Positions 64-16,165 of a DNA stretch of 21,553 bases are shown piece by piece. Source of the DNA: a virus; IMG/VR virus record IMGVR_UViG_3300035187_002205, positions 1-21,553 of that record, one strand, 5' to 3'. The notes beneath the pieces were generated by a model, which saw nothing but the letters and a program-made list of their open reading frames with translations, searched no databases and had not been told where the DNA came from. The position numbers were made by a program, and so were the translations under genes. How positions within the stretch are numbered: the first letter of the stretch is position 1; each line of letters opens with the position of its first letter.

Positions 64-1542
64 ATGGCTACTCCTCAATTTGGAAATCTAGAACAGCAGG
101 CCACGCAGCGGATCAACCCGTTACTCAAGGGGTTGTCGATGCTTACCGGAGGAATTGCCGGCGAACTCACCGGGACCAACGAGCAGATCCGTCAGCAGCG
201 GGCCGCTCGCAGGGCTCTGCTTCAAGAGGAACTCCAGAAGCGGGACGAGCAACGAGCCCTTGAGAGACAGTTGATGATTAACGCGCTCCAGCAGAACGTT
301 GGACAGCTTGAGGGAGCTACGTTCGAGGAGAGGATGGCCGACTTCCAGAAGAAGCGGCTCCGTCAGGAGATCGCAGGGCAGCAGGGTCGAATCTTTGGGT
401 TGGGGCAATCAATCGGTCCTTCGCCTTACGAAGCCGAACCGACCTTCCAAGCCGGAATGGCCAAGGGACAGGTCGAGCTTGCCGAGAAGAAGGCGATGGC
501 TGGTGCCGAAGAGGAAATCCAGCGTCCTTCGCTGGAAGCCCAGCTTCGTGGATTCGGAGCGACTCCTCGCACTGGTGCGCCCACCGGAGAACTCCGAGGC
601 CAGCTTGAGCGTATCCGCATGGAGACCCAGAGCAGGATTCCTGTCGAAAGCAGGGCTTCTCAAGCAAAGGCTGAACTTACTGCTTTGCAGGGAATGGGCT
701 TTGTTCCTAGCCCGATGAACATTGAGTCGCTTACTCCAGAGCAGGCGATTGCCCAAGCCGACATTTACGGTCGAAAGTATCAGCAGGAATCCTACGTCGG
801 AGCTTTTGATCGGAAGGCAAAAGCTGAACGCAAGGCGATCGATGAGTTCAATGTCGAGGCTGGCAAAGACTCCCCCGATCAGACCAAGCTCAAGACCCTG
901 TTCTATGATCTCCCGACGGATGCTCAGAAAGACGCTCGCAACCGCATGATTGCCGGTGTCACTCAGGCTCCTACGCCAAAGGAACGCGAATCGCTGGTCA
1001 AATACCGGGAGATGCTCGGTGGAGCGCAAAACCTTGCGACATCTCTGTCGTCTCTGGCTGGATCCGAGAACCTAGCGAAGGTTTCTCAGGACAACTTCAA
1101 CGGATTCCAAAGCTGGTTGCGCGGAATCAAAAACAAGTACGGAGCCGAGGATTCTCGACTCAGAACCATCAACGACATCGTTCAGCAGTTCGAGGCTGTC
1201 GTCGCAGGAAAGCGCAAAGATTTGTTCGGTGCTTCGCTCACCGGCAACGAGCTTGAATCTGCTAGGCAGCAATTCGCTGATCCCAAGTCGGCCAACTTCC
1301 TGCCGCGCATGGTTCAGTTCCTCGACGGAGTGTTCAGCCGCGATGTGGTCAACGAGGACTACAAGCAGTTCGGTATCCAGGTTCCTGCGGAACTCGAGAA
1401 GACTGTTCAAGACGCCCGCCAGAAATGGCTCACGACTCGTGAGCAACTCAACTTTGGGAATCTGGGTGGGACTCGCAGAGGGTTGTCGAACGAGGAGTCA
1501 GCAAGACTCAGGCAGCTCCAACAGAAGAGGGCTCAACAGTAA
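64..1542 (+). CDS. Putative internal virion or structural protein, Gln/Arg-rich, coiled coil
   Basis: 492 aa. I do not recognise a named family. Residues 1-40 carry a short Gly-rich hydrophobic stretch (LLKGLSMLTGGIAGELTG). Residues 40-110 are a charged, Gln/Arg/Glu-rich helical region likely to form a coiled coil. The rest is helical and low in Cys, and the tail is again Gln/Arg rich (LRQLQQKRAQQ). The ATG follows the previous stop directly and has AAGGA about 8 bases upstream. The 864-aa Gly/Ala-rich gene follows nine bases later. Large, low-complexity helical proteins in such pairs are typical of internal (ejected) virion proteins of short-tailed phages; that role is inferred from composition and order only. 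Confidence 0.7.
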   Translation: MATPQFGNLEQQATQRINPLLKGLSMLTGGIAGELTGTNEQIRQQRAARRALLQEELQKRDEQRALERQLMINALQQNVGQLEGATFEERMADFQKKRLRQEIAGQQGRIFGLGQSIGPSPYEAEPTFQAGMAKGQVELAEKKAMAGAEEEIQRPSLEAQLRGFGATPRTGAPTGELRGQLERIRMETQSRIPVESRASQAKAELTALQGMGFVPSPMNIESLTPEQAIAQADIYGRKYQQESYVGAFDRKAKAERKAIDEFNVEAGKDSPDQTKLKTLFYDLPTDAQKDARNRMIAGVTQAPTPKERESLVKYREMLGGAQNLATSLSSLAGSENLAKVSQDNFNGFQSWLRGIKNKYGAEDSRLRTINDIVQQFEAVVAGKRKDLFGASLTGNELESARQQFADPKSANFLPRMVQFLDGVFSRDVVNEDYKQFGIQVPAELEKTVQDARQKWLTTREQLNFGNLGGTRRGLSNEESARLRQLQQKRAQQ

Positions 1543-1551
1543 TTTATTTGT

Positions 1552-4146
1552 ATGCCACTTACCGCTGCTGAAGAGGCCGAATTGGCCCAACTCGAAGCTA
1601 AACTTGCCGGTTCTCAAGCGGCAGAGCCGCAGCTTACGGAAGAGGAACAACAGCGCAGGATTGCGATGGCCACTGCCGCTGCCCGTGCTGGTGGCGGTGG
1701 ATTCATTACTCCTCCGCTTCAGCCTGCGGCTTTTACTTCCGAAGAAGTGGTTCCAGCACTTCTCCGCTACGGCGTCCCGCTTGGTGCCGGGTTGGCCACG
1801 GGTCCGGTCGGTGGACTCGCAGCTCTTGCCAGAACCGCAGCAATCACGGGCGGGGCCGCTGGCCTAGGAGAAGCCGGCGCGCAGACCGTTGAAAGGGTTG
1901 CCGAGGACAAAGAGTATCGACGCGGAGAAATCTTGGGCGCGACGATCCGTGGTGCTGCTCCGCTCATCAGCCGTGCCCCCATCAAGACCATCCTCGCTGC
2001 CGGAGGAGCAGGCGTGGCAGGAGGCGCAGCCGAAGGGAAGACGGGTGGGATGGAGATGGCCGGTGAGTTCGTAAAATCCGCTGCACCGGTCGGGTTCCTT
2101 CAAGGGCTTTCAGCAGGATCAAGGGCTCTCGGAGAGTTCGTCCAAGGCGGAATGCAGCGGGCATCGGAGGTGGAAAGAATCGGACCCGGAGTTCAAGCCA
2201 CCATCGGTCAGGCATTCCCCGAGTTTGCCGGCCTGGAATCTCGCGTTGCGGCCCAGACAGGAAGCCAAGAGCTTCGCAAACAGCTCCAAGACCAGTCTCA
2301 GGCCATTGCGAGAGCTGTCCAAGGGGTCATGGGGGTTCCTGCTGAGAACTATCCGAATCTGGTCAACAGGATCGCCCAGACAATCGGGGATCTCGGACCA
2401 GAAACCGGCGCACGACTGGCCAACGAAGCGCAGAATGTCACCTCTGCATTCGGTGCCGTCGAAAAGGCGCGTTCAGAAGCCCAGAAGAGCCTCGCTCAAG
2501 ACGCTCTCAAGGAAGCCCAGCAAGCGTTCCAGAAGGCCATCGAGGTCGAAACCCTCAAGGGTGGAATCCGTGGCGGAGGCGTTCGCCAGTATCAGCCAGC
2601 GACCATGGGTGCAGAGGTCGAGGATGTCATCCAAAGCACCAAGAAAGCGTTCACAGATCGATCCGCTGAACTCTACCAACCGGTCAAACAATTCGAGAAC
2701 ACGCCAGCATTCGATCTCGGCCTCCCAGCAGGCCAGAACGTAGGGTCTGTCGAGGACGAGATCCTTGGCCTGCTCAACAAGTATCCCGCACTCCAAACCG
2801 GAGAGCAGAGCCGTGTCTTCACCCCGTATCTTCGCAAGCTCGAAGAGATCCTTGCCAGCAAGACACCGGCCTCATTGAACGACCTCAGGGCAATCCGAGA
2901 CCAGCTCTACGACGCTTCCGATGTCGCTGGCCAAGCGTTCGGTACGGCTGCGAAGCGCGACATCCGCAACGTCGCCAAGCGGATCACCCAAACCATCGAC
3001 TTCCAAGCCCCGTACTTCCTAGGGCAGCCCGAGGCTCTTGCTCTCAAGGAAGCCAATGCTTTCTACAGCCAGTTCCGGCCAAGGTTCGACGAGTTCGGAG
3101 TCGTCCAAGCCTTCAAGCCGGGAACCATGGAGACCGGCCAGATGGCTGAGATGTTCACGGGCCGTGTCGCTCGCCAAGGAACCGAAACTCCAGGCTTCGC
3201 AAATCCCTACACGCTGCTGCAAGACCTCAGAAAAGCGAACGTCGCCAACGTGCCAGCCCCGGAGCGTTTGGCCGACATCACTCGGTCAGGAATCGTCGAT
3301 CGATCCATTGATCCCGTCACAGGAGATGTCGATCTTTTGAAGCTCGCTGGCGATCTCAACAGCATTTCAAAACAGGGCGGCGGCGGATTGCAGCAGCTTG
3401 GCTTCGGAACCAAGCGGGAACTCGATCGCTTCGTCCAATACGTCCAGAAACTCGACCCAGCTCAGGCGAAAGGCCCTGAGGCAGTTCTGGAACTCCTCAA
3501 GACTGGCACCCCCGCTGGCTTCGCGGTCGCTTCTCGCGCCGTCCGCACCCTGCCCGACCTCGCAACGGTCGATTCGGTCATCAAGACCCTCGAAAAGCAG
3601 GCCGTGGCAGGCTCCAAGGTTGCCGAAAACACCCTGCTGAACATCAGGGCGCGTGAAATCGAGGACTTGCTCCTCAAAGCAAGCTCCGAAGGCCGCGTGG
3701 CGAACCTCGGATCACTCACCGAGCTGGCCGATCCAGCCATGCGAGACAACGTGGAACGAATCATCGGAAGAAACCTGATGAACCAGATCGATTCGACGTT
3801 CATCCCAGGATTCCGAGTCATCGAGGAGGCTCGACAGGCTGCTGGAATGGCCGGATCTACGGTCCGAGGTGCCGCGCTCGAACGGGTTGGACGCGCAGTC
3901 GTTCAAGCCCCCACCCAGATCGCCACGGGCAACGTCACGCAGGGAATCCAGAACATGCTCGGAAACGCTGCGGCGGCTCTCGGCTACTCCGCAGTGGCCA
4001 AGGTGTTCGCCAAGGGTGCCGGAGTGACGGGTCTCCGAAAACGTCAGGATTTCCTCAAGGATTTGGAGAAAATCGCAGGCGCTCCGCAGCCGCAGCAGAT
4101 CGAACTCCTGCGCCGATACATCGGCGAGGATTCACGCGAGGAATAA
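1552..4146 (+). CDS. Putative large internal virion (ejection) protein, Gly/Ala-rich
   Basis: 864 aa. Residues about 60-170 are a long Gly/Ala-rich hydrophobic region (for example GVPLGAGLATGPVGGLAAL and ILAAGGAGVAGGAAEG) that could insert into or cross a membrane. Residues about 295-335 are a charged Ala/Glu/Lys helix of coiled-coil type. The C-terminal 100 residues have another Ala/Gly-rich segment (NMLGNAAAALGYSAVAKVFAKG). The middle is helical without recognised catalytic motifs. This architecture resembles phage proteins ejected with the DNA, but no specific homolog is recognised. The start ATG at 1552 has no clear Shine-Dalgarno sequence (leader TAATTTATTTGT). It is the last gene of the left structural block; about 50 bases later the recombination block begins. 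Confidence 0.72.
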   Translation: MPLTAAEEAELAQLEAKLAGSQAAEPQLTEEEQQRRIAMATAAARAGGGGFITPPLQPAAFTSEEVVPALLRYGVPLGAGLATGPVGGLAALARTAAITGGAAGLGEAGAQTVERVAEDKEYRRGEILGATIRGAAPLISRAPIKTILAAGGAGVAGGAAEGKTGGMEMAGEFVKSAAPVGFLQGLSAGSRALGEFVQGGMQRASEVERIGPGVQATIGQAFPEFAGLESRVAAQTGSQELRKQLQDQSQAIARAVQGVMGVPAENYPNLVNRIAQTIGDLGPETGARLANEAQNVTSAFGAVEKARSEAQKSLAQDALKEAQQAFQKAIEVETLKGGIRGGGVRQYQPATMGAEVEDVIQSTKKAFTDRSAELYQPVKQFENTPAFDLGLPAGQNVGSVEDEILGLLNKYPALQTGEQSRVFTPYLRKLEEILASKTPASLNDLRAIRDQLYDASDVAGQAFGTAAKRDIRNVAKRITQTIDFQAPYFLGQPEALALKEANAFYSQFRPRFDEFGVVQAFKPGTMETGQMAEMFTGRVARQGTETPGFANPYTLLQDLRKANVANVPAPERLADITRSGIVDRSIDPVTGDVDLLKLAGDLNSISKQGGGGLQQLGFGTKRELDRFVQYVQKLDPAQAKGPEAVLELLKTGTPAGFAVASRAVRTLPDLATVDSVIKTLEKQAVAGSKVAENTLLNIRAREIEDLLLKASSEGRVANLGSLTELADPAMRDNVERIIGRNLMNQIDSTFIPGFRVIEEARQAAGMAGSTVRGAALERVGRAVVQAPTQIATGNVTQGIQNMLGNAAAALGYSAVAKVFAKGAGVTGLRKRQDFLKDLEKIAGAPQPQQIELLRRYIGEDSREE

Positions 4147-4196: not shown

Positions 4197-4376
4197 GTGA
4201 GCGTAAAACTCCTCTCAACGAAGCAGATCGCCACTGCTCTCGGGGTCCACCCCGAGACCGTGCGCCGATGGATCCGTTCGGGGCGGCTCCCAGCGATGAA
4301 GGCCACCAGCCAAGTCATCCGGGTCCGCTCCGATGTGGTCGAGCAGATGCTCCGCAATCAACAAGACAAACAATGA
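4197..4376 (+). CDS. Small helix-turn-helix DNA-binding protein (excisionase/MerR-like)
   Basis: 59 aa from GTG at 4197; the frame extends upstream to a TTG at 4161, so the start is uncertain. Residues 5-50 read LLSTKQIATALGVHPETVRRW, then a short 'wing' with SGRLPAMK and VIRVRSDVVEQML. This is the winged-HTH pattern of the excisionase/MerR-type 'helix-turn-helix domain 17' group. It could be an Xis-like directionality factor or an early-operon regulator. No integrase is in the window, so a regulator of the downstream recombination operon is equally possible. Its TGA overlaps the ATG of the RecT-like gene (ATGA), which suggests translational coupling. Confidence 0.75.
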   Translation: MSVKLLSTKQIATALGVHPETVRRWIRSGRLPAMKATSQVIRVRSDVVEQMLRNQQDKQ

Positions 4377-5143
4377 ACGCAATCGCAACGACAACGCAGC
4401 CATCATCCGAGATGTACGACAAGATCTCGGACCCCATCACCGCCATCGAGAAGATGGGCGAGTGGATCGCATCATCCGGCATGCTCGGATGCACCAAGGT
4501 CGAGCAGGGCAAACTCATCGCGTGGCAGTGCGCCGCCGAGAAGAAGACCCCGTTCGACTTCAAGCGCGAGTACCACATCATCAACGGATCCTTGAGCATG
4601 CGCTCCGATGCCATGCTCGCCGGATACCGTGTTCGCGGAGGCAAAGTCCTCTGGAAGCAGTTCGACTCGAAAGCCGCCATCGCCATCTGGAAGTACGATG
4701 GCAACGAGTGCGAGATCGGCTTCACCGAGAACGATGCCCGCACCGCTGGCCTACTCCCAGCCAAGCCGGGTTCCGGGTGGGCCAAGGATCCGTCCGCCAT
4801 GCTCCGCGCCCGCTGCATCTCCAAGGCAGTCCGCATGCTCGCGCCCGAGGTCGTCGCCGGGATCTACACCCCGGAGGAAACCGAGGACTTCCAGCCCGCT
4901 CCTTCGGAGGTCGCAGTCACACCGGCCAAGTCCTTCGACATCACCTCCAAACTCGAAGAGCTTTTCGAGTCACGCGAGACCGAGGTGAACCAACTCCTCA
5001 TCGGTGCCGGACGAATCAAGGAAGGTCAGACCTTCCGAGACATCGACGACGTGACCGCTTCCAAGTACATCAAGCGGCCCGACCTCATCCTCTCCAAGCT
5101 CCCGGCTCCCGCCGTCGAGACCACCGTGGAGGTCGCACCGTGA
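4373..5143 (+). CDS. RecT-like single-strand annealing recombinase
   Basis: 256 aa. It would anneal complementary single strands during phage recombination, working with the exonuclease encoded next. Family-like features are PFDFKREYHIINGSLSMRSDAML (about residues 60-82), the Trp/Asp-rich middle (VLWKQFDSKAAIAIWKYDG) and the conserved C-terminal core WAKDPSAMLRARCISKAVRM followed by APEVVAGIYTPEE (about 136-169). This pattern is typical of RecT/Red-beta superfamily proteins of phages. The start ATG overlaps the stop of the HTH gene, and its leader (ACAAGACAAACA) has no SD. The stop overlaps the GTG of the exonuclease gene. The tail beyond residue 170 is variable, as usual. Which annealing subfamily it belongs to cannot be settled by eye. 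Confidence 0.82.
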   Translation: MNAIATTTQPSSEMYDKISDPITAIEKMGEWIASSGMLGCTKVEQGKLIAWQCAAEKKTPFDFKREYHIINGSLSMRSDAMLAGYRVRGGKVLWKQFDSKAAIAIWKYDGNECEIGFTENDARTAGLLPAKPGSGWAKDPSAMLRARCISKAVRMLAPEVVAGIYTPEETEDFQPAPSEVAVTPAKSFDITSKLEELFESRETEVNQLLIGAGRIKEGQTFRDIDDVTASKYIKRPDLILSKLPAPAVETTVEVAP

Positions 5144-5916
5144 AGTTCAAACAGATGGCGGCAGCGGATTACCACGCCCGACGCGCTCTCTCCAAGTCTG
5201 GCCTCGACCAGTTCCGCAAGTCGCCAGCCCACTTCCGCGCATGGCAGGACGGTGATGCCAAGCAGGAGTCCACTCCTGCCATGGAGTTCGGCACCGCCGC
5301 TCACATGGCTGTCCTTGAGCCAGAACTGTTCATCCAGAAGTACAAGCCGTTCAACGGGGACAAGCGCACCAAGGAAGGCAAGGCCATCTGGCAGGCCATC
5401 CTCGACTCAGGCCACACCCCTCTGGCAGCAGAGACTTGGGACTCGATCAACCACCTCGCGGCATCCGTCCACGCACACCCTGCCGCTGCCCAACTCATCC
5501 ACCGCATCGAGCCAGAGACCTCTTGGTTCGACAACTGGAACGGCATCGAGGTCAAAGCCCGACTCGATGGCATCGGAGACGATTACATCATCGACCTCAA
5601 GACCACCCAGGACGCATCGCCATCGGCGTTCGCAAAGTCCGTCGCGCAGTTCCGCTACCATGTCCAAGCCGCTTGGTATCAGCGCATCACCTGCATCCGC
5701 CGCTTCGTATTCATCGCAGCAGAGAAGGAGCCGCCTTTCGGCATCGCCTGCTACGAGCTTGATCAGCAGGCCATCGACCTCGGCAACGAGATCATCGATG
5801 CTCAGCTCGCCACCTTCCGCGAATGCCAAGCCCTCAACTCTTGGCCCTGTTATTCCTCCTCAACCGAAACCCTTTCTCTGCCCGCGTGGGCTTTGAAGAA
5901 CAACGAAAACCAGTAA
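5140..5916 (+). CDS. PD-(D/E)XK exonuclease (RecE/Cas4-like), partner of RecT
   Basis: 258 aa from GTG at 5140, overlapping the RecT stop (GTGA). The frame is open further upstream, but that part is a shadow of recT. Motifs in order: LSKSGLDQFRKSPAHF (18-32), the RecB-type GTAAHMAVLEPE (51-62, His55), LDGIGDDYIIDLKTT (142-156) holding Asp143, Asp152 and Lys154 of the nuclease centre, and FRYHVQAAWYQ (171-181) with the conserved Gln/Tyr. These match the RecE C-terminal/DUF3799-type nucleases that degrade one strand of dsDNA to feed a RecT annealer. Length fits a stand-alone nuclease domain. Confidence 0.85.
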   Translation: MKFKQMAAADYHARRALSKSGLDQFRKSPAHFRAWQDGDAKQESTPAMEFGTAAHMAVLEPELFIQKYKPFNGDKRTKEGKAIWQAILDSGHTPLAAETWDSINHLAASVHAHPAAAQLIHRIEPETSWFDNWNGIEVKARLDGIGDDYIIDLKTTQDASPSAFAKSVAQFRYHVQAAWYQRITCIRRFVFIAAEKEPPFGIACYELDQQAIDLGNEIIDAQLATFRECQALNSWPCYSSSTETLSLPAWALKNNENQ

Positions 5917-5920
5917 CACC

Positions 5921-6337
5921 ATGAAGTTCACAGTAGATCGTTCCCAAGCAGAAGTGAAGTCCTTCGCCGGTCCCGGCGAATACACCGTCGTCGTCAACTC
6001 CGCCAAGGACGAGGGCCTCGACAAGTACGGCAACCCCGTCGTCACCCTCCGCTACAAGGCTGCCAGCGGCGAGACCGTCAGCGACCGGTTCACCCTCAAG
6101 GAAACCCTCATGTGGCGCGTCCAGTCGCTCATCTCCGCCACCGATGCCAACATCGATGACGGCAAGGAGTTCGACTTCTCGGTCCCAGGTGCCTTCCTCG
6201 CCTTCCTCCAAGGATTCGTGGGGCTCTCGCTCAACATCGTCCTCGAAGAGGAGAAGTACACCGACAAGAACGGTGCCGAACAGACCACCTTGCGCGTGAA
6301 GCGGATGAAGAAGACCCCCGCTGACGAGGCGTTCTGA
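5921..6337 (+). CDS. DUF669-like protein, putative phage ssDNA-binding protein
   Basis: 138 aa. Residues 17-60 read GPGEYTVVVNSAKDEG...YGNPVVTLRYKAASGETVSDRFTL, followed by a helical middle and a second beta-rich half ending in a Lys/Arg-rich strand (TTLRVKRMKKTP). This arrangement is that of DUF669 proteins, which sit beside recombinases in many phages and are thought to act like single-strand binding proteins. Position directly after recT and the exonuclease supports this. The start has no SD (leader AACCAGTAACACC). A strong hairpin follows the stop. The ssDNA-binding role is inferred from family and neighbours. Confidence 0.7.
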   Translation: MKFTVDRSQAEVKSFAGPGEYTVVVNSAKDEGLDKYGNPVVTLRYKAASGETVSDRFTLKETLMWRVQSLISATDANIDDGKEFDFSVPGAFLAFLQGFVGLSLNIVLEEEKYTDKNGAEQTTLRVKRMKKTPADEAF

Positions 6338-6414: not shown

Positions 6415-7524
6415 ATGCACGACAAAGATTCATCACAACAGGAACCCGCGCAAGCGTTCCTTCTGCGCCCTTACCAGCAGAGAGCTGTCGATTGGGCCAA
6501 TCAGGGCGGAGGTCTCATCATCGCCCCGGCAGGAAGCGGCAAGACACTCATCGCTTCCTCCATCATCAAGCACTATTGCCAATGGCCAGATTGGAGCTTC
6601 GGCTGGCTCGCACCTACCCGCGAAACCTGCCAGCAGGCGATTGCTTCGCTCCAAGCTGTGGGCGTTGATCACTCTCGCATCGAGGTCCGGTGCCCCCACG
6701 AGTCGGTCGATTTTTCATCCAAGAAAGTCATCATCGTGGACGAGGCAAAGCATGCACCTGCCGAGTCGTGGCGCAGGATCATCGAGTCCTGTAAAGGTAT
6801 CCGATTCGGCTTCGATGCCACCCCTTGGGGCGATGATTTCAAGCGGAACGAGATCCTCCTCAAGCTCTTTGGAGATAGCGTCTACGAGATCAAGCGCGAG
6901 GAGCTGGCAGGAGTTCTGGCCCACGCAACCGTCATGATGTGTTCCGCCACGGACTTCATGATCCAGAAGAAGATCGATGACCACATCGAGAAACTCTTCA
7001 CCGACCGCAAACGCTACATGCGGATCCGACACGAGGAACTCCGCGCCATGTGCGCTTGGGAAGCCATCACCGACATCGGTATCTGCCAGAACAAGATAAG
7101 GAACGACGCCGCCGTGCGATTCGCATCCCTCGATCCTCAGACCCTCGTGCTGGTCCCAAGAGTCACGCTAGGCGAGGACTATGCGCGGAGGATCAGCGGT
7201 TCCATCCTCGTCCATTCCAAGATGCCGAAGAAGGCTCGCCGCGCTGCCATGGAAGAGTTCAAGGCTGGCAACATCAAGGCCATGATCGCCACCTCGCTGG
7301 CCGACGAGGGACTGGACCTTCCAAACGTCCGCACACTCGTGATGGTGTCCGGTGGCAGGAGCGCACAGAAAACAATCCAGCGGGCCAGCAGGGCTCTGCG
7401 TAGATGCGAAGGGAAGGACGAGGCGTTCATCCACGACTTCAAGGACAACTTCCATCCTCTCGCCCAGGCCCACGCCAAGAAGCGGATCAAGTGCTACCAA
7501 CAACTAGGATGCTCGATCCAATGA
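6415..7524 (+). CDS. Superfamily 2 DEAD-type helicase
   Basis: 369 aa. Motif order: LRPYQQRAVDWA (Q-type motif, 17-28), Walker A APAGSGKT (37-44), motif Ia LAPTRE (65-70), Walker B VDEAKH (108-113, DEAK box), FDATP (133-137, motif III position), then a second RecA-like domain with VHSKMPKKARR, IATSLADEGLDLPNVRTLV (motif V) and TIQRASRALRR (motif VI, with the arginine finger). These show an ATP-dependent DNA or RNA helicase of the type found in phage recombination and replication modules. The start ATG at 6415 lacks an SD and follows an A/C-rich leader of about 40 bases after the hairpin. The stop overlaps the ATG of the next small gene. Its partner in this phage is unknown. Confidence 0.88.
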   Translation: MHDKDSSQQEPAQAFLLRPYQQRAVDWANQGGGLIIAPAGSGKTLIASSIIKHYCQWPDWSFGWLAPTRETCQQAIASLQAVGVDHSRIEVRCPHESVDFSSKKVIIVDEAKHAPAESWRRIIESCKGIRFGFDATPWGDDFKRNEILLKLFGDSVYEIKREELAGVLAHATVMMCSATDFMIQKKIDDHIEKLFTDRKRYMRIRHEELRAMCAWEAITDIGICQNKIRNDAAVRFASLDPQTLVLVPRVTLGEDYARRISGSILVHSKMPKKARRAAMEEFKAGNIKAMIATSLADEGLDLPNVRTLVMVSGGRSAQKTIQRASRALRRCEGKDEAFIHDFKDNFHPLAQAHAKKRIKCYQQLGCSIQ

Positions 7525-7661
7525 ACACCGCGCTCACGATCATCTCGATGGCCGCGATCCTCCCGATCTTCACACTCCTCGGAGTCTTCGTAGGCCACAA
7601 ACTCACCATCAGATCACAGAAGCAACCACCAACCAATGAACCAAACAATCGTAGCCTGTGA
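7521..7661 (+). CDS. Small single-span membrane protein
   Basis: 46 aa: a hydrophobic segment from about residue 4 to 27 (ALTIISMAAILPIFTLLGVFVG) followed by a basic, Pro/Asn-rich tail. The ATG overlaps the helicase stop (ATGA), and the 3' end overlaps the resolvase gene by 26 bases in another frame. It has no SD (leader TCGATCCA). The function is unknown. A holin is conceivable from size alone, but it sits in a replication operon and no endolysin is nearby, so I do not call it one. Confidence 0.6.
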   Translation: MNTALTIISMAAILPIFTLLGVFVGHKLTIRSQKQPPTNEPNNRSL

Positions 7662-8091
7662 CCCCGGCGTGAACGGAGGGTTCGCAGTCAAAACACAGGA
7701 CAGAATCCTCCTGTTCCCAATGCCGGAATCCGTGCCGGACATCCACGAACTCCTCATGGACCTCAAACTCTCAGACTCCCACATCTGGATCGAGAAGGTG
7801 CCGAAGTTCGTTTCCAAACTCACCCCGGCCGCAGCCGTCGCCACACTCCACGAGAACTACGGCATCGTCCAAGGACTGGCCTACTCTCAAGGCTACGCAC
7901 TCCACCGCGTCGAGCCTCGAGTCTGGCAGGAACCACTCGGACTCGGCGGCAGGAAGTCCTGCGCCACCGGCCCGGAATGGAAGCGTAAGCTCAAGGCCAA
8001 GGCCCAGGAACTCTACCCCCATCTGGATGTCACCCTCGGCAACGCCGACGCCCTGCTCATCCTGCACTACGCCACCGGAGGGCACCGATGA
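7636..8091 (+). CDS. RuvC-like Holliday junction resolvase
   Basis: 151 aa. It begins with VACDPGVNGGFAV, the first strand of the RNase H fold with catalytic Asp9. A second acidic residue, Glu53, sits in IWIEKVP, and a third, Asp138, in GNADALLILHY near the C-terminus. PAAAVATLHENYGIVQGLAYSQGY and VEPRVWQEPLGL are also typical of phage RuvC-like nucleases. Such enzymes cut four-way junctions formed by RecT-type recombination or branched DNA before packaging. The start lacks an SD (ACCACCAACCA) and overlaps the previous gene; the stop overlaps the next ATG. Confidence 0.8.
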   Translation: MNQTIVACDPGVNGGFAVKTQDRILLFPMPESVPDIHELLMDLKLSDSHIWIEKVPKFVSKLTPAAAVATLHENYGIVQGLAYSQGYALHRVEPRVWQEPLGLGGRKSCATGPEWKRKLKAKAQELYPHLDVTLGNADALLILHYATGGHR

Positions 8092-8249
8092 AAAGGACCG
8101 CACCGGAACGGATGATTGCTGACGGAGACGGTGGCTATCACATGACCAAGAACGATGTGGGCCAAGCTTTCAAGGCAGCAAGGAACTACAGGTTCAAAAA
8201 CGAAACATCAGTCTGGAGAAGGAACAACAAGAAGAAAGGATCGAAGTGA
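8088..8249 (+). CDS. Small basic hypothetical protein
   Basis: 53 aa. The ATG overlaps the resolvase stop (ATGA) and the TGA overlaps the next GTG (GTGA), so it is fully embedded in the operon. The C-terminal half is strongly basic (RRNNKKKGSK), and a short segment MTKNDVGQAFKAARNYRF could be a helix that binds nucleic acid. The family is not recognised. The 3' end (AAGAAAGGATCGAA) supplies the SD of the next gene. Confidence 0.6.
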   Translation: MKRTAPERMIADGDGGYHMTKNDVGQAFKAARNYRFKNETSVWRRNNKKKGSK

Positions 8250-8452
8250 ACCGCTTCCTGTTCGGCTTCTCTGTCGGGTGCATTGCCGGAAGCTTCGTGG
8301 CAACCGCCATCGAGATGGCCAGTTACCGACTCAAGGTCCGGCAACTGGTGCAGGAGCGGATGGAGGTGGAGGCGGTGATGACCGGCCATGCTGAATGGCG
8401 GGAAGGCCAGGACGGAAGGCCGGTGTTCTACTGGAAGGAAAAATGCAGATGA
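8246..8452 (+). CDS. Small membrane-anchored protein
   Basis: 68 aa from GTG at 8246, with AAAGGA about 6 bases upstream. Residues 4-22 (FLFGFSVGCIAGSFVATAI) form one membrane span. A charged cytoplasmic-type helix follows, and the protein ends in FYWKEKCR. It resembles the next gene in plan: a short Gly-rich span of the form FLxGxxVGxxAG, then a charged helix with a WKE near the end. The pair could be an old tandem duplication. The function is unknown. Confidence 0.6.
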   Translation: MNRFLFGFSVGCIAGSFVATAIEMASYRLKVRQLVQERMEVEAVMTGHAEWREGQDGRPVFYWKEKCR

Positions 8453-8586
8453 AGGCAACAATGTCATTCCTGCTTGGCGTCTTGGTCGGCGCGTATGCAG
8501 CCGGACAAGTCTGGCAGGAGGAAGCAATCAAACGTAAGTTAGCAAAGTGGGAAAATAATCAATTCAAATGGAAGGAATCGAAATGA
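8449..8586 (+). CDS. Small membrane-anchored protein, similar in plan to its upstream neighbour
   Basis: 45 aa from ATG at 8449, overlapping the previous stop (ATGA), with AAGGA 9 bases upstream. An ATG two codons earlier (8443) has a poorer spacing. Residues 5-19 (SFLLGVLVGAYAAGQVW) are hydrophobic and the rest is a Lys/Trp-rich helix ending in FKWKESK. Both halves echo the preceding 68-aa protein. The function is unknown. Confidence 0.55.
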   Translation: MKATMSFLLGVLVGAYAAGQVWQEEAIKRKLAKWENNQFKWKESK

Positions 8587-8837
8587 CACGAGAACAAGCA
8601 ATCAAACCCACCAAGACCATGCGTCCGTGGACTGCGGACGAGGTTCCGCTGGGGGCGTGGTTGCGACACAGCAAGCAAGGCAGGAAAGCTATTATCATGG
8701 ATGTCACACCCGATCCAAGCATTGGAATCAACGGTTCCTACTTTTCGCCTCAGTTTGTTTTGGCATATTGCGAACACAGCCTCGACGGCGGCAAGACGTG
8801 GCTCCCTTGTGGAGTGGAGGAGGAGTCGAAGCCATGA
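8583..8837 (+). CDS. Hypothetical protein upstream of thyX
   Basis: 84 aa from ATG at 8583 (ATGA overlap; AAGGAATCGAA leader with good SD spacing). It reads MTREQAIKPTKTMRPWTADEVPLGAWLRHSKQ near the start, then beta-type segments (GRKAIIMDV, NGSYFSPQFVLAYCEHSLDGGKTW). Globular and compact, with no motif I recognise. The C-terminal codons GTGGAGGAGGAG provide the SD of thyX. The function is unknown. Confidence 0.6.
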   Translation: MTREQAIKPTKTMRPWTADEVPLGAWLRHSKQGRKAIIMDVTPDPSIGINGSYFSPQFVLAYCEHSLDGGKTWLPCGVEEESKP

Positions 8838-9493
8838 AAACAAAAATTGTAGCGATTACGAAACCCCTTGTTGGTGACGGCGAGATGTCGGCATCCGACT
8901 TCATCACCTATTGCGCGAGGGTGAGCAATCCGGCCAATCAGCTCAACACGCTGACAGCGCCGAGGTTGCTGGCCTACTGCATCAAGAACGGCCATTGGAG
9001 CATCTTTGAGCAGGCGAGCATGACCGTGGAGATTGTGACGAGCAGGGCGGTTGCTGCTCAGATTCTTAGGCACCGCAGCTTTTGCTTCCAAGAGTACTCG
9101 CAGCGTTACGCAACCGCTCTGGAGATGGAGCCTGTGGAGCTGAGGACGCAGGACTTGAAGAATCGTCAAGCGAGCGGTGAGGTGTTCGATCACGAGTGGG
9201 CCAAGGCTGCCGTTGAGATCGTGACGAGCCGGTCGTGGGACGTGTATCATAAGCTCATCTCGCATGGTGTGAGTCGTGAGACTGCGCGGATGATTCTTCC
9301 GATGTGTACGCAGACGACGATGTACATGACTGGAAGTGTGCGCTCATGGATTCACTACCTTGAGCAGCGGTGTGCGAAGGGAACCCAGAAGGAGCATCGG
9401 GAGATTGCCGTGTCGATTCGCGACACGATCTTCAAGGAGCATTTCGGGGATATTTACGATGCGCTTACGGCGATTGAGGAGGAATCGAAATGA
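8834..9493 (+). CDS. thyX: Flavin-dependent thymidylate synthase ThyX
   Basis: 219 aa, a normal length for the family. ThyX makes dTMP from dUMP using FAD, NADPH and methylene-tetrahydrofolate. The signature RHRSFCFQEYSQRY (residues 79-92) matches the ThyX motif RHRxxSxxxxSxRY in its key positions: Arg79-His80-Arg81, Ser89, Arg91-Tyr92. Further family segments are the N-terminal ITYCARVSNP, IKNGHWSIFEQASMTVEI, and the C-terminal SWIHYLEQRCAKGTQKEHREIA. The start at 8834 overlaps the previous stop and has GGAGGAG upstream; the frame continues upstream only as shadow. Base use is clearly G-rich compared with the flanking replication genes. A phage ThyX would raise dTMP supply for replication. 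Confidence 0.95.
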   Translation: MKTKIVAITKPLVGDGEMSASDFITYCARVSNPANQLNTLTAPRLLAYCIKNGHWSIFEQASMTVEIVTSRAVAAQILRHRSFCFQEYSQRYATALEMEPVELRTQDLKNRQASGEVFDHEWAKAAVEIVTSRSWDVYHKLISHGVSRETARMILPMCTQTTMYMTGSVRSWIHYLEQRCAKGTQKEHREIAVSIRDTIFKEHFGDIYDALTAIEEESK

Positions 9494-9858
9494 GCCCAGA
9501 AAAACAAAGAAGGACCATATTGGAAGCGTGTGGGTGGACTGCCAAAGAGGATAAGGATGGATTTTGGAGGGCTGTTGATCGGTCCGGAAACATGACGTAC
9601 ACGCTATGGGTAAGCGAAATGAATGTATGGTCGGCCGGAATGCCCGACGTCCTCGAAGACCTCAACGCTATGCATGAGGCGGAGAAGGTGCTGACAGATG
9701 AACAAGACCTAGAGTATTCTGAGGCGTTGGAACAGGTCGTTAAAGGACGATTTGCAACAGCTAACTCCGAAGACATGCGGAGACTTCGATCAGCCACCGC
9801 ATCCCAACGCGCAGAGGCTTTCCTCCGCACGATTGGCAAATGGGAGGAGGGAAAATGA
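9490..9858 (+). CDS. Phage protein with ABA-sandwich-type C-terminus
   Basis: 122 aa; ATGA overlap with thyX and GAGGAGG SD. It begins RRTILEACGWTA, has an aromatic-rich middle, then VLEDLNAMHEAEKVLTDEQ and ends ATASQRAEAFLRTIGKWEEGK. The DLNAMHEAEK ... ATAxQRAEAFLRTIGKW pattern is common in phage proteins assigned to the 'phage ABA sandwich' family. I recall this from family knowledge and have not searched it. The function is unknown. The C-terminal codons supply the next SD (GGGAGGAGG). Confidence 0.65.
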   Translation: MSPEKQRRTILEACGWTAKEDKDGFWRAVDRSGNMTYTLWVSEMNVWSAGMPDVLEDLNAMHEAEKVLTDEQDLEYSEALEQVVKGRFATANSEDMRRLRSATASQRAEAFLRTIGKWEEGK

Positions 9859-10094
9859 ACCAACCAATCAACGACGGAGGACCGGCGTTTCCGACGGCAA
9901 CGCTGGCACAGAAAACAGAAGGAGGCATGACCCTCCGCGACTACTTCGCAGCGGCGGCGTTGCAGGGGATACTTAGTGGAGCAGATCGAAGCACGGTGAA
10001 GTATCTCGAAAATATGCGATATCCAGCAGGAGAGATGTCGAGTGCTGCCTACAACATCGCCGACGCAATGCTCAAAGCGAGGGAGGCGAAATGA
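9855..10094 (+). CDS. Conserved small phage protein (DGGPAFP ... LRDYFAAAALQG type)
   Basis: 79 aa. It reads INDGGPAFPTATLAQKTEGG, MTLRDYFAAAALQGILSG and, at the end, AAYNIADAMLKAREAK. This layout recurs in many phage and prophage small proteins of unknown function. The start has GGGAGGAGG 4 bases upstream and overlaps the preceding stop. The 'DAML+ARE' end is followed by the start of the paralogous array. Confidence 0.65.
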   Translation: MNQPINDGGPAFPTATLAQKTEGGMTLRDYFAAAALQGILSGADRSTVKYLENMRYPAGEMSSAAYNIADAMLKAREAK

Positions 10095-10375
10095 GCAACC
10101 ATCTTGGTGACACCAACAAAATGGTCAGTGAGACGCCGCGCACAGATGACCGAGCCGTAATCATCGACGGAAACCCGTGGGTCAATGCACCATTCGCTCG
10201 CCAACTCGAACGAGAACTCAACGCAGCGAATCAGCGCATCCAGCGGCTGGAGGAGGCTCTAACTTGGTACGAATCCAAAGTGTCAGACTGCAATCGACGC
10301 GGACCAGAAGGTGATGCTGCACGGGATGCTCTTGCAAAAGACCTCGGACACAAAGCAAAGGAGGCCAAGCCGTGA
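10091..10375 (+). CDS. Tandem-array protein A (DTPRTD/FARQLERELNAAN family)
   Basis: 94 aa. The N-terminal 55 residues contain ETPRTDDRAVIIDGNPWVNA and FARQLERELNAANQRIQRLEE, followed by a helix and a basic end (HKAKEAKP). The FARQLERELNAAN...RLEE part is a probable coiled coil. It matches array protein C (10584) at 44 of 55 positions without gaps and shares the TPRTD and FARQLE.ELNAAN blocks with array protein B. The start ATG has GGGAGGCGAA before it. The stop overlaps the GTG of protein B at a 17-base junction that recurs. The function is unknown. Confidence 0.7.
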   Translation: MSNHLGDTNKMVSETPRTDDRAVIIDGNPWVNAPFARQLERELNAANQRIQRLEEALTWYESKVSDCNRRGPEGDAARDALAKDLGHKAKEAKP

Positions 10376-10587
10376 GTGATACACCGAGGACGGATGAAGC
10401 GCAGTTTGGAACCGGACGTGTGAGTGTCGGTTTCGCCCGCCAGTTGGAACTCGAACTGAACGCCGCCAATGACCGCATCAAGCGGTTGGAGGAGGCCGCA
10501 ATGATGGCTTTGCATGGATGCTACAACGGCCCGATGCCGGACCATGTTCGCGATGCTCTTGCGGACGCTATGGAGGCCAAGCCGTGA
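10372..10587 (+). CDS. Tandem-array protein B (DTPRTD/FARQLERELNAAN family)
   Basis: 71 aa from GTG at 10372, overlapping the stop of protein A. It begins MSDTPRTDEAQFGTG, continues SVGFARQLELELNAANDRIKRLEEA, then MALHGCYNGPMPDHVRDALADAMEAKP. It lacks the NPWVNA insert of A and C and is the more distant member. The end 'EAKP' is encoded by the same bases as in A and supplies the SD and start of the next gene. Probably a coiled-coil oligomer; the role is unknown. Confidence 0.68.
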   Translation: MSDTPRTDEAQFGTGRVSVGFARQLELELNAANDRIKRLEEAAMMALHGCYNGPMPDHVRDALADAMEAKP

Positions 10588-10925
10588 GCAACCATATTGC
10601 CGACGCCAACAAAATGGTCGGTGACACACCGAGGACGACTGATCGGGTGGTATTCATCGACGGAAACCCGTGGGTGAATGCTCCGTTTGCCAGAGGTCTT
10701 GAACGCGAACTCAACGCAGCCAACGAACGCATCCAGCGGCTGGAGGATGGAGATGCGGCATTGACCTACAGCATAGGCTTAGACCTTCAGAAGGAGAACG
10801 AGGCATTGAAGGCCCGCATCCAACGCCTGGAGGAGGCGGGGGATGCACTCAAAGCAGCAGGGTACTTCGGTGGGTTCGGTGATGCGGTCAACAAATGGAT
10901 AAAGGTGAGGGAGGACAAGCCGTGA
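10584..10925 (+). CDS. Tandem-array protein C (DTPRTD/FARQLERELNAAN family)
   Basis: 113 aa from GTG at 10584. Residues 1-55 are a close copy of protein A (MSNHIADANKMVGDTPRTTD, IDGNPWVNAPFARGLERELN, AANERIQRLED). A second coiled-coil unit follows in which the RIQRLEE element is repeated (LQKENEALKARIQRLEEAGD), then a Gly-rich turn and KVREDKP. The longer helix suggests an extension by internal repetition. The start lies in the second copy of the 17-base junction and the stop in the third. Confidence 0.7.
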   Translation: MSNHIADANKMVGDTPRTTDRVVFIDGNPWVNAPFARGLERELNAANERIQRLEDGDAALTYSIGLDLQKENEALKARIQRLEEAGDALKAAGYFGGFGDAVNKWIKVREDKP

Positions 10926-11032
10926 GCGCATCCATCCAATGCGCCAAATGCCTCCGATCCTGTCGCCCGTCAAAGAGCGGCAAGAGCTGGGTCTGCACCA
11001 TCTGCAAACACCGAGAGAGAATCAAACCATGA
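10922..11032 (+). CDS. 36-residue zinc-ribbon protein
   Basis: Starts at GTG 10922 in the third junction repeat and stops at 11030-11032, overlapping the next ATG. Cysteines 7 and 10 (CAKC) and 25 and 28 (CTIC) form two CxxC pairs 14 residues apart, a zinc-ribbon arrangement; Cys14 is extra. The rest is basic (RPSKSGKSW, KHRERIKP), so nucleic-acid binding is plausible. It is one of three or four tiny Cys-rich proteins in this operon. Confidence 0.62.
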   Translation: MSASIQCAKCLRSCRPSKSGKSWVCTICKHRERIKP

Positions 11033-11223
11033 GCAAGGAACACGCAACGCAATCCCATCTCTCCAAACTGGAGCAGGAGGTGCAGGAACTGAAGGCCTGC
11101 AACGAATACCTCCGGCAGAAGCTCGGGAAGCTCGACGCCCGCATCAGGCACCTGATCCGGCTGGGGCTGGCAACCACACGACCGGAGGCTCTGGACCAAT
11201 GGCAGGAGGAGGAGGAATTGTGA
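11029..11223 (+). CDS. Small coiled-coil protein
   Basis: 64 aa from ATG at 11029 (ATGA overlap, leader GAATCAAACC with no SD). Residues 10-45 (LSKLEQEVQELKACNEYLRQ, KLGKLDARIRHLIRL) form a heptad-like helix, and the end is acidic (WQEEEEL). The acidic codons GAGGAGGAGGAA also give a strong SD for the next gene. The function is unknown. Confidence 0.6.
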   Translation: MSKEHATQSHLSKLEQEVQELKACNEYLRQKLGKLDARIRHLIRLGLATTRPEALDQWQEEEEL

Positions 11224-11429
11224 ACATGTCCGTAGCCTTCGTCTACAAACACACAACCACAGGAGAAGTCGTCGTGGTGGACATCGAGCGCGCACGGGAA
11301 CTCGATGCAGCCAGACCGTACTGGAAGCACGTTTCAACGGTCGATCCAATCGTCATCCTCCAACTCATCGTCAAATCCAACGGCCAGAAGCGGGCCAAGA
11401 TCATCAGGGAACTCTCAGAGCAACCATGA
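11220..11429 (+). CDS. Hypothetical small protein
   Basis: 69 aa from GTG at 11220 (GTGA overlap, GGAGGAGGAATT SD at good distance); an ATG at 11226 is an alternative. Two beta strands are likely (SVAFVYKHTTTGEVVVVDIE), then a helix with IVILQLIVKSNGQKRAKIIRELS. The family is not recognised. It is the last SD-led gene before the A/C-rich block. Confidence 0.58.
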   Translation: MNMSVAFVYKHTTTGEVVVVDIERARELDAARPYWKHVSTVDPIVILQLIVKSNGQKRAKIIRELSEQP

Positions 11430-11650
11430 AACTCAACGAACTACCATTCGATCACCCATCCAGAAACACTCCCATCAAAGACCTCGACGTCCTCATCGTC
11501 TGCGCTCACACAGGCTCAAAACAAAACCATCGCACCTGGAAGATAGAAAACAACACCTACAACGAACTTAACTCGTCATGGCAGAACAACTTCTACTTCG
11601 TACTCCAAGAACCGACGCCTACGTCGAGTCCTGGCTCAAAGACCGAATAG
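11426..11650 (+). CDS. Hypothetical small protein
   Basis: 74 aa from ATG at 11426, overlapping the previous stop; the leader AGAGCAACC has no SD. Contains DLDVLIVCAHTGSKQNHRTWKIENN and SSWQNNFYFVLQEP. The last 24 codons overlap, in another frame, the start of the truncated array-family ORF at 11578, and the final PTPTSSPGSKTE looks like the shadow of that frame. The true end may therefore be the product of a rearrangement. The function is unknown. Confidence 0.5.
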   Translation: MKLNELPFDHPSRNTPIKDLDVLIVCAHTGSKQNHRTWKIENNTYNELNSSWQNNFYFVLQEPTPTSSPGSKTE

Positions 11651-11835
11651 CCCTCTGGCCAGACTTCGCACGACAACTGGAACGTGAACTCAACGCTCAA
11701 ATCCATCGGACTCACCAAGGACCAGATCGCCAAGATGCTGGGAACCCAAGTGATGCCAGACCCTCCGAAACCAAAACCACACATCTACCCAGGTCGCAAG
11801 ATCGACCCGGCAATCACCAAGGCAATCCTCAATGA
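11578..11835 (+). pseudogene. Truncated fourth member of the DTPRTD/FARQLERELN family
   Basis: Open frame of 85 codons. Residues 9-40 read TPRTDAYVESWLKDRIALWP then DFARQLERELNAQ, clearly of the same family as array proteins A-C. After residue 40 the match stops: instead of AANxRIQRLEE there is a His/Pro/Gln-rich stretch that is the shadow of the HTH gene starting at 11684 in another frame. The 5' end overlaps the tail of the preceding gene. Either a remnant left by recombination or a short expressed peptide. There is no SD before the ATG. Confidence 0.5.
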
Positions 11836-11929
11836 CAAATCAGGGAGAACCGTCCGTGAACTCGCAAAGAAACACGACGTGTCAGTCTACTACGTCTGGT
11901 CACTCAAAAACAAACAACGAAACAAATAA
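11684..11929 (+). CDS. Small HTH-type protein
   Basis: 81 aa from GTG at 11684. The N-terminal half has GLTKDQIAKMLG and a Pro-rich linker (MPDPPKPKPHIYPG). The C-terminal half has a helix-turn-helix pattern (SGRTVRELAKKHDVSVYYVW) and a basic end (SLKNKQRNK). It starts inside the truncated array ORF, so its GTG falls on the conserved ERELN codons in another frame. It has no SD. A DNA-binding role is likely; the target is unknown. Confidence 0.6.
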   Translation: MNSTLKSIGLTKDQIAKMLGTQVMPDPPKPKPHIYPGRKIDPAITKAILNDKSGRTVRELAKKHDVSVYYVWSLKNKQRNK

Positions 11930-15571: not shown

Positions 15572-16165
15572 CTACTCGACAGACCCCCACTGCTCGGCCA
15601 TCGCACGGGCAATCCCGGGGTAGGTCTTGCTCCGCTCCTTCCAACGAGTAGGACTCGGACCCAATTTGTTCTGACCACTAAGAGTCTGATTGGCCCACCT
15701 ACCAGAAGCAGGTAATGATAATACGTTTGTGGGTACCAGCGGGGGCAGGTTCCTCAGCCATAAACACGTCCGCTTGCTCGCGTCATCACCAAACTGCCAC
15801 GGCTGTATCATCTGCGTGGGTTTGCATATCCGTGTGTTGATAGCACCAACAGGATTCTCTATCGCAATACGGGGAATCCCGCTATTGAGCAACAAATGCA
15901 CAAATCCGAGCGCATCCTCGGTCAGCTTCGGGTCGCGGAGGCCGCGGGTTGTCCAATGCATCCCGCTCGCGCACAGATAGGTGCAGGGCGGGAACGCAAT
16001 CATCATGTCCCACCGCTCGGTCAGGAGATCGCGCACATCCCCACGGTAGTGCTGGCCAGGAGTGTCGCTCGGCTCAAAATCGCAACTCCATGCGTCCCAG
16101 CCCTTGCCAGCGAACGAATCACGCACCCGCCCGCTGTACTCACAAGCCACAAGCACACGCTTCAC
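15572..16165 (-). CDS. Short cytosine-5 DNA methyltransferase-like protein
   Basis: 197 aa from GTG at 16165 (GTGA overlap with the preceding gene, GGGGGTGGG upstream). It has the SAM-binding start VLVACEYSGRVRDSF with an acidic site in SCDFEPSD (28-34), the motif IV-like IAFPPCTYL (56-64) with a candidate catalytic Cys61, and the motif VI-like AIENPVG (101-107). KPTQMIQPWQFGDDASKRTC and the end RSKTYPGIARAMAEQW are typical of this short phage family. It is much shorter than full cytosine-5 methyltransferases and lacks an obvious target-recognition domain. It may modify phage DNA or be a non-standard member. Transcribed away from the skew-switch region. Confidence 0.72.
   Translation of the reverse strand: MKRVLVACEYSGRVRDSFAGKGWDAWSCDFEPSDTPGQHYRGDVRDLLTERWDMMIAFPPCTYLCASGMHWTTRGLRDPKLTEDALGFVHLLLNSGIPRIAIENPVGAINTRICKPTQMIQPWQFGDDASKRTCLWLRNLPPLVPTNVLSLPASGRWANQTLSGQNKLGPSPTRWKERSKTYPGIARAMAEQWGSVE

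Follow-up and report, generated by a model that had tools for sequence, protein, structure and literature searches.

The three adjacent genes that share a TPRTD block at positions 10091 to 10925 of the window (the whole stretch of 21,553 nucleotides (nt) of the virus record IMGVR_UViG_3300035187_002205, to which all coordinates refer unless a related contig is named) are probably cassettes of a hypervariable gene-shuffling island, which lies between recombination and replication genes and exchanges its members by short-homology recombination at the joints between genes. The parts of this reading that are demonstrated below are an unbroken chain of genes, joints of fixed sequence, swapping of both heads and tails, gene turnover among near relatives, edges of homology located at the joints and purifying selection. 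A first-pass annotation of the window had described a tandem array of a small coiled-coil family, in which the following genes (called here A, B and C) are the complete copies:

Gene A (cassette 8): 10091-10375, plus strand; ATG start, 94 amino acids (aa); TPRTD family by the core profile, with the tail ALTWYESKVSDC..HKAKEAKP
Gene B (cassette 9): 10372-10587, plus strand; GTG start, 71 aa; TPRTD family by the core profile
Gene C (cassette 10): 10584-10925, plus strand; GTG start, 113 aa; TPRTD family by the core profile, with the tail DALKAAGYFGGFGDAVNKWIKVREDKP

The three genes with common blocks are present where they had been placed, and are visible in both the DNA repeats and the protein. 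The TPRTD and FARQLERELNAAN blocks are common to A, B and C, the neighbors A/B and B/C overlap by 4 nt each, and the earlier count of 44 identities over 55 N-terminal residues between A and C is exact. At the DNA level, a 65-nt repeat (D1) is found in four copies, one of them at 11665-11729, while a 163-nt repeat (D2), 80% identical and with its copies 493 nt apart, relates gene A to gene C. A profile of the TPRTD core, seeded with the window copies and copies from relatives, finds all four copies in the window (E values of 4e-25, 9e-25, 1e-19 and 6e-16; the fourth copy lies in an open reading frame (ORF), D, considered below) and dozens of relatives elsewhere in IMG/VR contigs; the resemblance is therefore not due to chance. 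At least two copies are carried by 43 of 110 loci and a single copy by the other 67 (the contigs are partial). Single-copy genes with a known, unrelated structural function were not encountered: 43 loci are multi-copy, and none has a known function. In the AlphaFold model of gene A (mean pLDDT 77), a disordered start is followed by a small hairpin and by helices at residues 33-68 and 72-91, with which the proposed helical, coiled-coil core agrees, as far as predicted helices can tell. Searches for function were negative. Genes A to D gave weak coiled-coil noise and nothing more against Pfam, PHROG and NCBIfam, a search of GenBank phages with A and B gave no convincing relative, none of 46 members of the family had a convincing family match, and a fold search of the gene A model against PDB and BFVD returned no match at E ≤ 0.001. 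The suggestion that the array encodes interchangeable proteins that inhibit host proteins or act as their adaptors is thus not borne out.

While the tandem family is real, the array is far longer than had been annotated. Genes A to C belong to a set of 14 small genes (8088-11650) that form an unbroken chain, with every pair of neighbors overlapping by exactly 4 nt. The other members are listed here, related contigs being numbered with the prefix L:

Island gene 1, the conserved left end: 8088-8249, plus strand; first gene in seven of eight compared islands (L079 starts inside the island)
Cassettes 2 to 4: 8246-8837 (8246-8452, 8449-8586 and 8583-8837), plus strand; exact 4-nt overlaps
Cassette 5, ThyX thymidylate synthase: 8834-9493, plus strand; PF02511, 1.8e-41; a family present in the window only
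Cassette 6: 9490-9858, plus strand; 4-nt overlaps
Cassette 7, with a phrog_2201-type head (GMTLRDYFAAAALQG): 9855-10094, plus strand; 4.8e-22
Cassette 11, a 36-aa CxxC..CxxC zinc-ribbon-like protein: 10922-11032, plus strand; assigned from sequence and chain, common to L138
Cassettes 12 and 13: 11029-11429 (11029-11223, a coiled coil, and 11220-11429), plus strand; assigned from the chain
Island gene 14, the conserved right end: 11426-11650, plus strand; last gene in all eight compared islands

Even the ThyX gene acts as an ordinary cassette, having 4-nt overlaps at both ends and being found in none of the other seven islands. Chains of this type reach 22 genes in related contigs (L070). As controls, three Akkermansia phages and the opposite strand of the loci gave four genes at most, and the rest of the window gave three. 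The setting of the TPRTD genes bears on whether they are a dedicated tandem family, duplicated in place and producing interchangeable host-protein inhibitors or adaptors whose N-terminus is fixed and whose effector tail varies. Such a family is favored by the tandem arrangement of three related genes, 163 nt of A/C DNA at 80% identity, a model of gene A with a hairpin and two long helices, and two or more copies in 43 of the 110 loci. However, the neighbors of TPRTD genes in other phages are mostly unrelated genes on the same joint, the tails are common to heads without TPRTD, and no functional match was obtained; we regard this explanation as unlikely.

The joint itself is a DNA element. The C-terminus of most cassettes reads K-A-K-E-A-K-P or differs little from it, and the gene ends ..KAKEAKP-stop correspond to a DNA repeat, AAGGAGGCCAAGCCGTGAGC, that comprises the last codons of one gene and the ribosome site and start of the next. 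The consensus of the joint is AAGGAGGCCAAGCCGTGAG; GGAGG and the start codon are part of the joint, and no internal gene of the chain has any other leader. Three of the joints border the TPRTD genes:

Joint A/B: 10361-10375, plus strand; gene end, Shine-Dalgarno (SD) site and GTG start; repeat D4 and junction scan
Joint B/C: 10573-10587, plus strand; DNA repeat and junction scan
Joint C/cassette 11: 10911-10925, plus strand; DNA repeat and junction scan

Codon usage was examined with two selections, one of ends picked by peptide alone and one of 19-mers picked by DNA alone; the 19-mer is present in at least 120 IMG/VR stretches. In all 124 distinct ends picked by peptide the stop is TGA and lies within GTGA or ATGA. 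The lysine codon in these ends depends on position, being AAA in 98% at -7, AAG in 99% at -5 and AAG in 97% at -2; because the same amino acid has different, position-fixed codons, conservation is at the DNA level and not of the protein alone. Conversely, 104 of 109 exact AAGGAGGCCAAGCCGTGAG 19-mers picked by DNA are the end of one ORF and the start of another, with 57 different N-termini downstream. All joints are on the coding strand, directly at the starts of genes from different families. That a C-terminal peptide, W.KAKEAKP, is kept for the function of the protein, for instance as a binding tag or a degradation signal, would agree with the frequency of tryptophan and KAKE at gene ends, but is very improbable in view of the position-fixed codon choice, of a residue after E (A/D/S/V) and a last residue (P/L) that vary as the DNA joint permits, and of 124 ends out of 124 tied to the 4-nt overlap.

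A second joint is found inside the genes:

Internal joint RI[QK]RLEEA: gene A, 10232-10257, with more copies at 10471-10496, 10725-10750 and 10812-10837, plus strand; repeat D3, codon fixation and homology edges

It too is fixed at the DNA level. In 63 copies of RIKRLEEAG the first arginine is CGC in 90%, the second arginine is CGG in 97% and the first glutamate is GAG in 97%, unlike the glutamate of ARQLERELN, which is mostly GAA. The combinations of what lies on either side are numerous: in 276 cassettes, 77 head clusters are paired with 69 tail clusters in 135 different ways (the clusters were formed by single linkage and the counts are approximate). Of 33 multi-member tail clusters, 20 occur on at least two head clusters, and of 30 head clusters, 18 carry at least two tails. 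The tail type of gene A is found on other heads in L009, L064 and L001, the tail of gene C (DALKAAGYFGGFGDAVNKW..) is found on unrelated heads (L136 3008-3325, L098 1650-2246 and L135 191-436), and one cassette (L040 445-729) joins a Lar-type zinc ribbon head to a RIKRLEEAGD..KAKEAKP tail. The idea that the family keeps its N-terminus and varies its tail therefore holds insofar as C-terminal modules are swapped, but the same tails are also present on unrelated heads. Among 100 diverse cassettes without TPRTD, phrog_2201 is matched by eight, named functions (Lar-like, helix-turn-helix (HTH)) are single cases only and most have no match. The Lar profile did not match A, B or C, and the L040 cassette is the only Lar-matching type. 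As a separate observation, the internal joint RIKRLEEAGDAM, for example at L040 640-668, has GGAGGAGG a few bases 5' of an ATG and could double as an internal ribosome site.

Homology between loci begins and ends at these sites. When the window is compared with other loci, 66 of 150 homology edges lie no more than 20 nt from an overlap, where 25.7 would be expected, and none of 5000 random sets reached 66; within A-B-C, 56 of 79 edges are at an overlap or a RIKRLEE site, against 28 expected. These edges are relevant to the proposal that the joint is kept for translation only, an optimal SD site and the overlap coupling translation of the operon with no role in recombination. The presence of GGAGG and the start codon within the joint, and internal genes devoid of any other leader, are in line with it. 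However, fixation extends beyond the SD site and the start (to AAA GCC at -7/-6 and AAG CCG at -2/-1), a second DNA-fixed site is present inside the genes, and homology edges cluster at both kinds of site, which makes a purely translational joint rather improbable. The cassette proteins are under purifying selection: the median ratio of non-synonymous to synonymous substitution (dN/dS) is 0.26 over 139 cassette pairs and 0.35 over 30 TPRTD pairs, and thus the cassettes encode real proteins.

Eight islands located between the same flanks were compared, and contain 36 whole-cassette families. Genes 1 and 14 are retained at the two ends (the L079 contig starts inside the island), and turnover between them is visible even between near relatives. 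L098, whose flanks are 97.9% identical to those of the window, has 6 of 10 genes in common with it (families 1, 2, 3, 12, 13 and 14), of which four are internal; L079, with 97.8% flank identity, has 5 of 9 (families 2, 3, 7, 10 and 14). In L137 (89.9% identity) only genes 1, 13 and 14 are common, and gene 1 is joined directly to gene 13. The end of gene 1 is GGCCAAGCCGTGAGC (KAKGAKP) in L137 and GGATCGAAGTGAACC (KKKGSK) in the window, and the L137 end would fit the remnant that a crossover within the joint is predicted to leave. Elsewhere among the islands, a cassette of 200 aa in L138 (1759-2361), flanked by normal joints, contains long repeats of Ala-Arg-Asp-Ala / Ala-Trp-Asp-Ala.

The fourth copy of the TPRTD core lies at the right edge of the island, against a conserved gene:

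ORF D, the fourth TPRTD copy: 11578-11835, plus strand; core at 11602-11694, then overlapping the HTH gene in another frame
HTH-like protein: 11684-11929, plus strand; PF13384, E 0.004, under the curated cut-off; conserved in 27 loci

This ORF had been described as breaking off. The TPRTD core is present, but its frame stays open and continues out of frame across the HTH gene. The same layout, with an open D core and the HTH gene next to it in another frame, is found in 11 near relatives, and in L040 and L145 the D version begins right after a gene overlap. D is thus a cassette that has come to abut the HTH gene and no longer has its normal end. Comparison of the D core of the window with that of L040 shows, in its own frame, 12 synonymous and 4 non-synonymous codon differences, whereas the two other frames give 0/17 and 0/16; the corresponding values in its own frame are 9/4 against L142 and 5/2 against L136. 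Since the changes are mostly synonymous, D was translated in the past of that lineage. In the window, the ATG at 11578 has no obvious SD site. A TPRTD core out of frame over the HTH gene, seen in several lineages (window 11578-11929, L040 729-1095, L145 and L142), could represent an overlapping gene or a frameshift fusion; programmed frameshifting that would fuse D with the HTH gene was considered, the layout being the same in relatives, but no slippery site was established.

Upstream of the array, on the same strand, is a set of recombination genes:

RecT-like single-strand annealing protein: 4373-5143, plus strand; PF03837, 25.2 bits (cut-off 24), and phrog_561 (RecT-like), 4e-23; the candidate shuffling agent
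RecE-type exonuclease (exonuclease VIII): 5155-5916, plus strand; PF12684, 9e-37, and phrog_412 (exonuclease VIII), 5e-76
Single-strand DNA binding protein (SSB): 5921-6337, plus strand; phrog_378, 1.6e-11
Helicase: 6415-7524, plus strand; PF00271, 3.5e-15, and PF04851, 7e-15
Holliday junction resolvase: 7636-8091, plus strand; phrog_1770, 8.5e-16; 4-nt overlap with the first island gene

Downstream of the array are the HTH-like gene and a primase/helicase. Outside this region, a DNA methyltransferase gene (15572-16165, minus strand; phrog_757, 2.6e-61) lies on the opposite strand directly 3' of the replication genes, and two large ORFs of 492 and 864 aa (64-4146) have no PHROG match at 0.001.

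How might the exchange take place? A cassette is one small gene, with the SD site of the next gene in its last ~6 codons and its stop overlapping the next start by 4 nt (GTGA/ATGA). The joint, of about 20 nt, is nearly identical among unrelated genes, so that a crossover there could gain, drop or replace any cassette, and the design of the overlap means that any cassette should fit in without breaking expression; the recombinant would stay translatable within a translationally coupled operon. At RIKRLEEAG, the DNA-fixed joint in the coiled-coil region, heads and tails would be exchanged, giving rise to new chimeric proteins. The agent is likely to be the phage's own set of RecT, exonuclease VIII, SSB and resolvase just upstream, as suggested by the position of the genes and because proteins of this type promote exchange at short, diverged homologies in phages (PMC3945230). 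One cassette per gene, a uniform orientation and a common boundary sequence also recall integron-like, site-specific cassette recombination, in which the joint would be the target of a dedicated recombinase. That candidate was rejected: the joints have scattered pairs only and no inverted-repeat recombination site, no such integrase or resolvase is among the 20 window proteins tested (the window being a fragment), and half-gene exchange at RIKRLEEAG would be unexpected, all of which leaves it with very little probability. Several points nevertheless weigh against a shuffling island driven by short homologies. The evidence is all comparative and comes from partial metagenomic contigs, with no recombination event seen directly; SD site and start account for part of the conservation of the joint; edges of high-scoring segment pairs and gene pairs are not fully independent, as related contigs share history; the role of RecT is drawn from position and precedent alone; and the TPRTD proteins are known here from their genes alone. 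A bolder form of the shuffling-island reading, which we put forward tentatively and with somewhat less than even confidence, is that of a programmed-like protein-diversifying locus, in which the uniform joints would be coding ends, ribosome sites and recombination sites at once and so leave each recombinant operon in frame and translatable, the internal joint would make chimeras on an ecological time scale, and the phage annealing recombinase would be the engine.

As for the products, their position, their turnover and the Lar-like member suggest that the cassettes encode accessory proteins for host takeover or counter-defence. The island is rich in small phage proteins that lack annotation and turn over fast, a pattern often seen, we infer, for genes that meet host defences. 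Among host genomes, a TPRTD gene was found in one contig only of a metagenome-assembled genome (L056, JASGCE010000153.1, 5.9 kb), binned as Paceibacterota; it is probably a misbinned phage fragment, and for this reason no host was assigned. The best terminase relatives, in Akkermansia phages (32-36% identity), are a weak hint at Verrucomicrobiota; none of the cassettes is present in those phages.

The way in which phages create and exchange their many small accessory genes is usually deduced from mosaic maps that are smooth, and a common sequence cannot be found at the majority of mosaic boundaries (PMC3029335). Here, the joints are uniform, countable and at defined places, and therefore the rate, agent and product of exchange are open to testing; the island offers a visible, testable example of a virus reshuffling its accessory proteins by whole genes and by half-genes. 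A repeated sequence is present at the module boundaries, and homology starts and stops there, as in mosaicism at short boundary sequences. In lambdoid phages, short conserved boundary or linker sequences lie between modules (Susskind and Botstein, 1978; Clark et al., 2001, for HK620; both as outlined in PMC3029335), and the island resembles them, as outlined there, in the homologous recombination proposed at short conserved sequences between early-region modules. In contrast to that outline, one joint recurs here many times per genome, always uniting gene end, ribosome-binding site and start by way of a 4-nt overlap, and the genes have a second joint in their interior. Another close parallel is with the start-associated sequences (SAS) of cluster K mycobacteriophages, a 13-bp repeated, oriented sequence just 5' of the starts of different gene families, first read as translational and for which roles in both translation and recombination are suggested (PMC3203893). 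As with SAS, the joints have one orientation and are directly at the starts of genes from different families (57 N-termini); unlike the joints, SAS are not bound by a 4-nt overlap to the coding end of the preceding gene, and their sequence differs, the SAS consensus GGGATAGGAGCCC not being matched by that of the joint. The ESAS inverted repeats of cluster K have no counterpart seen at the joints. Rad52-like and RecT-like phage recombinases perform relaxed exchange of short, diverged homologies, as shown for recombination of a phage with a prophage in E. coli (PMC3945230); the agent proposed here is alike, though deduced from gene content. Unrelated phage proteins are also known to share fragments, from a survey of domain mosaicism centered on annotated functions which, by its own account, under-covers unknown and accessory proteins (PMC10684548). 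Fragment sharing is alike in the island, but exchange there is at DNA-fixed points and concerns small proteins that lack annotation, with links to described heads confined to single cassette types (Lar in L040 445-729, phrog_2201 in 8 of the 100 cassettes). Some of the literature searches for a previous account of joints of this kind yielded nothing relevant. The island differs from both the lambdoid boundaries and SAS in its fixed 4-nt overlap architecture, in the length of its chain and in having a second joint within genes.

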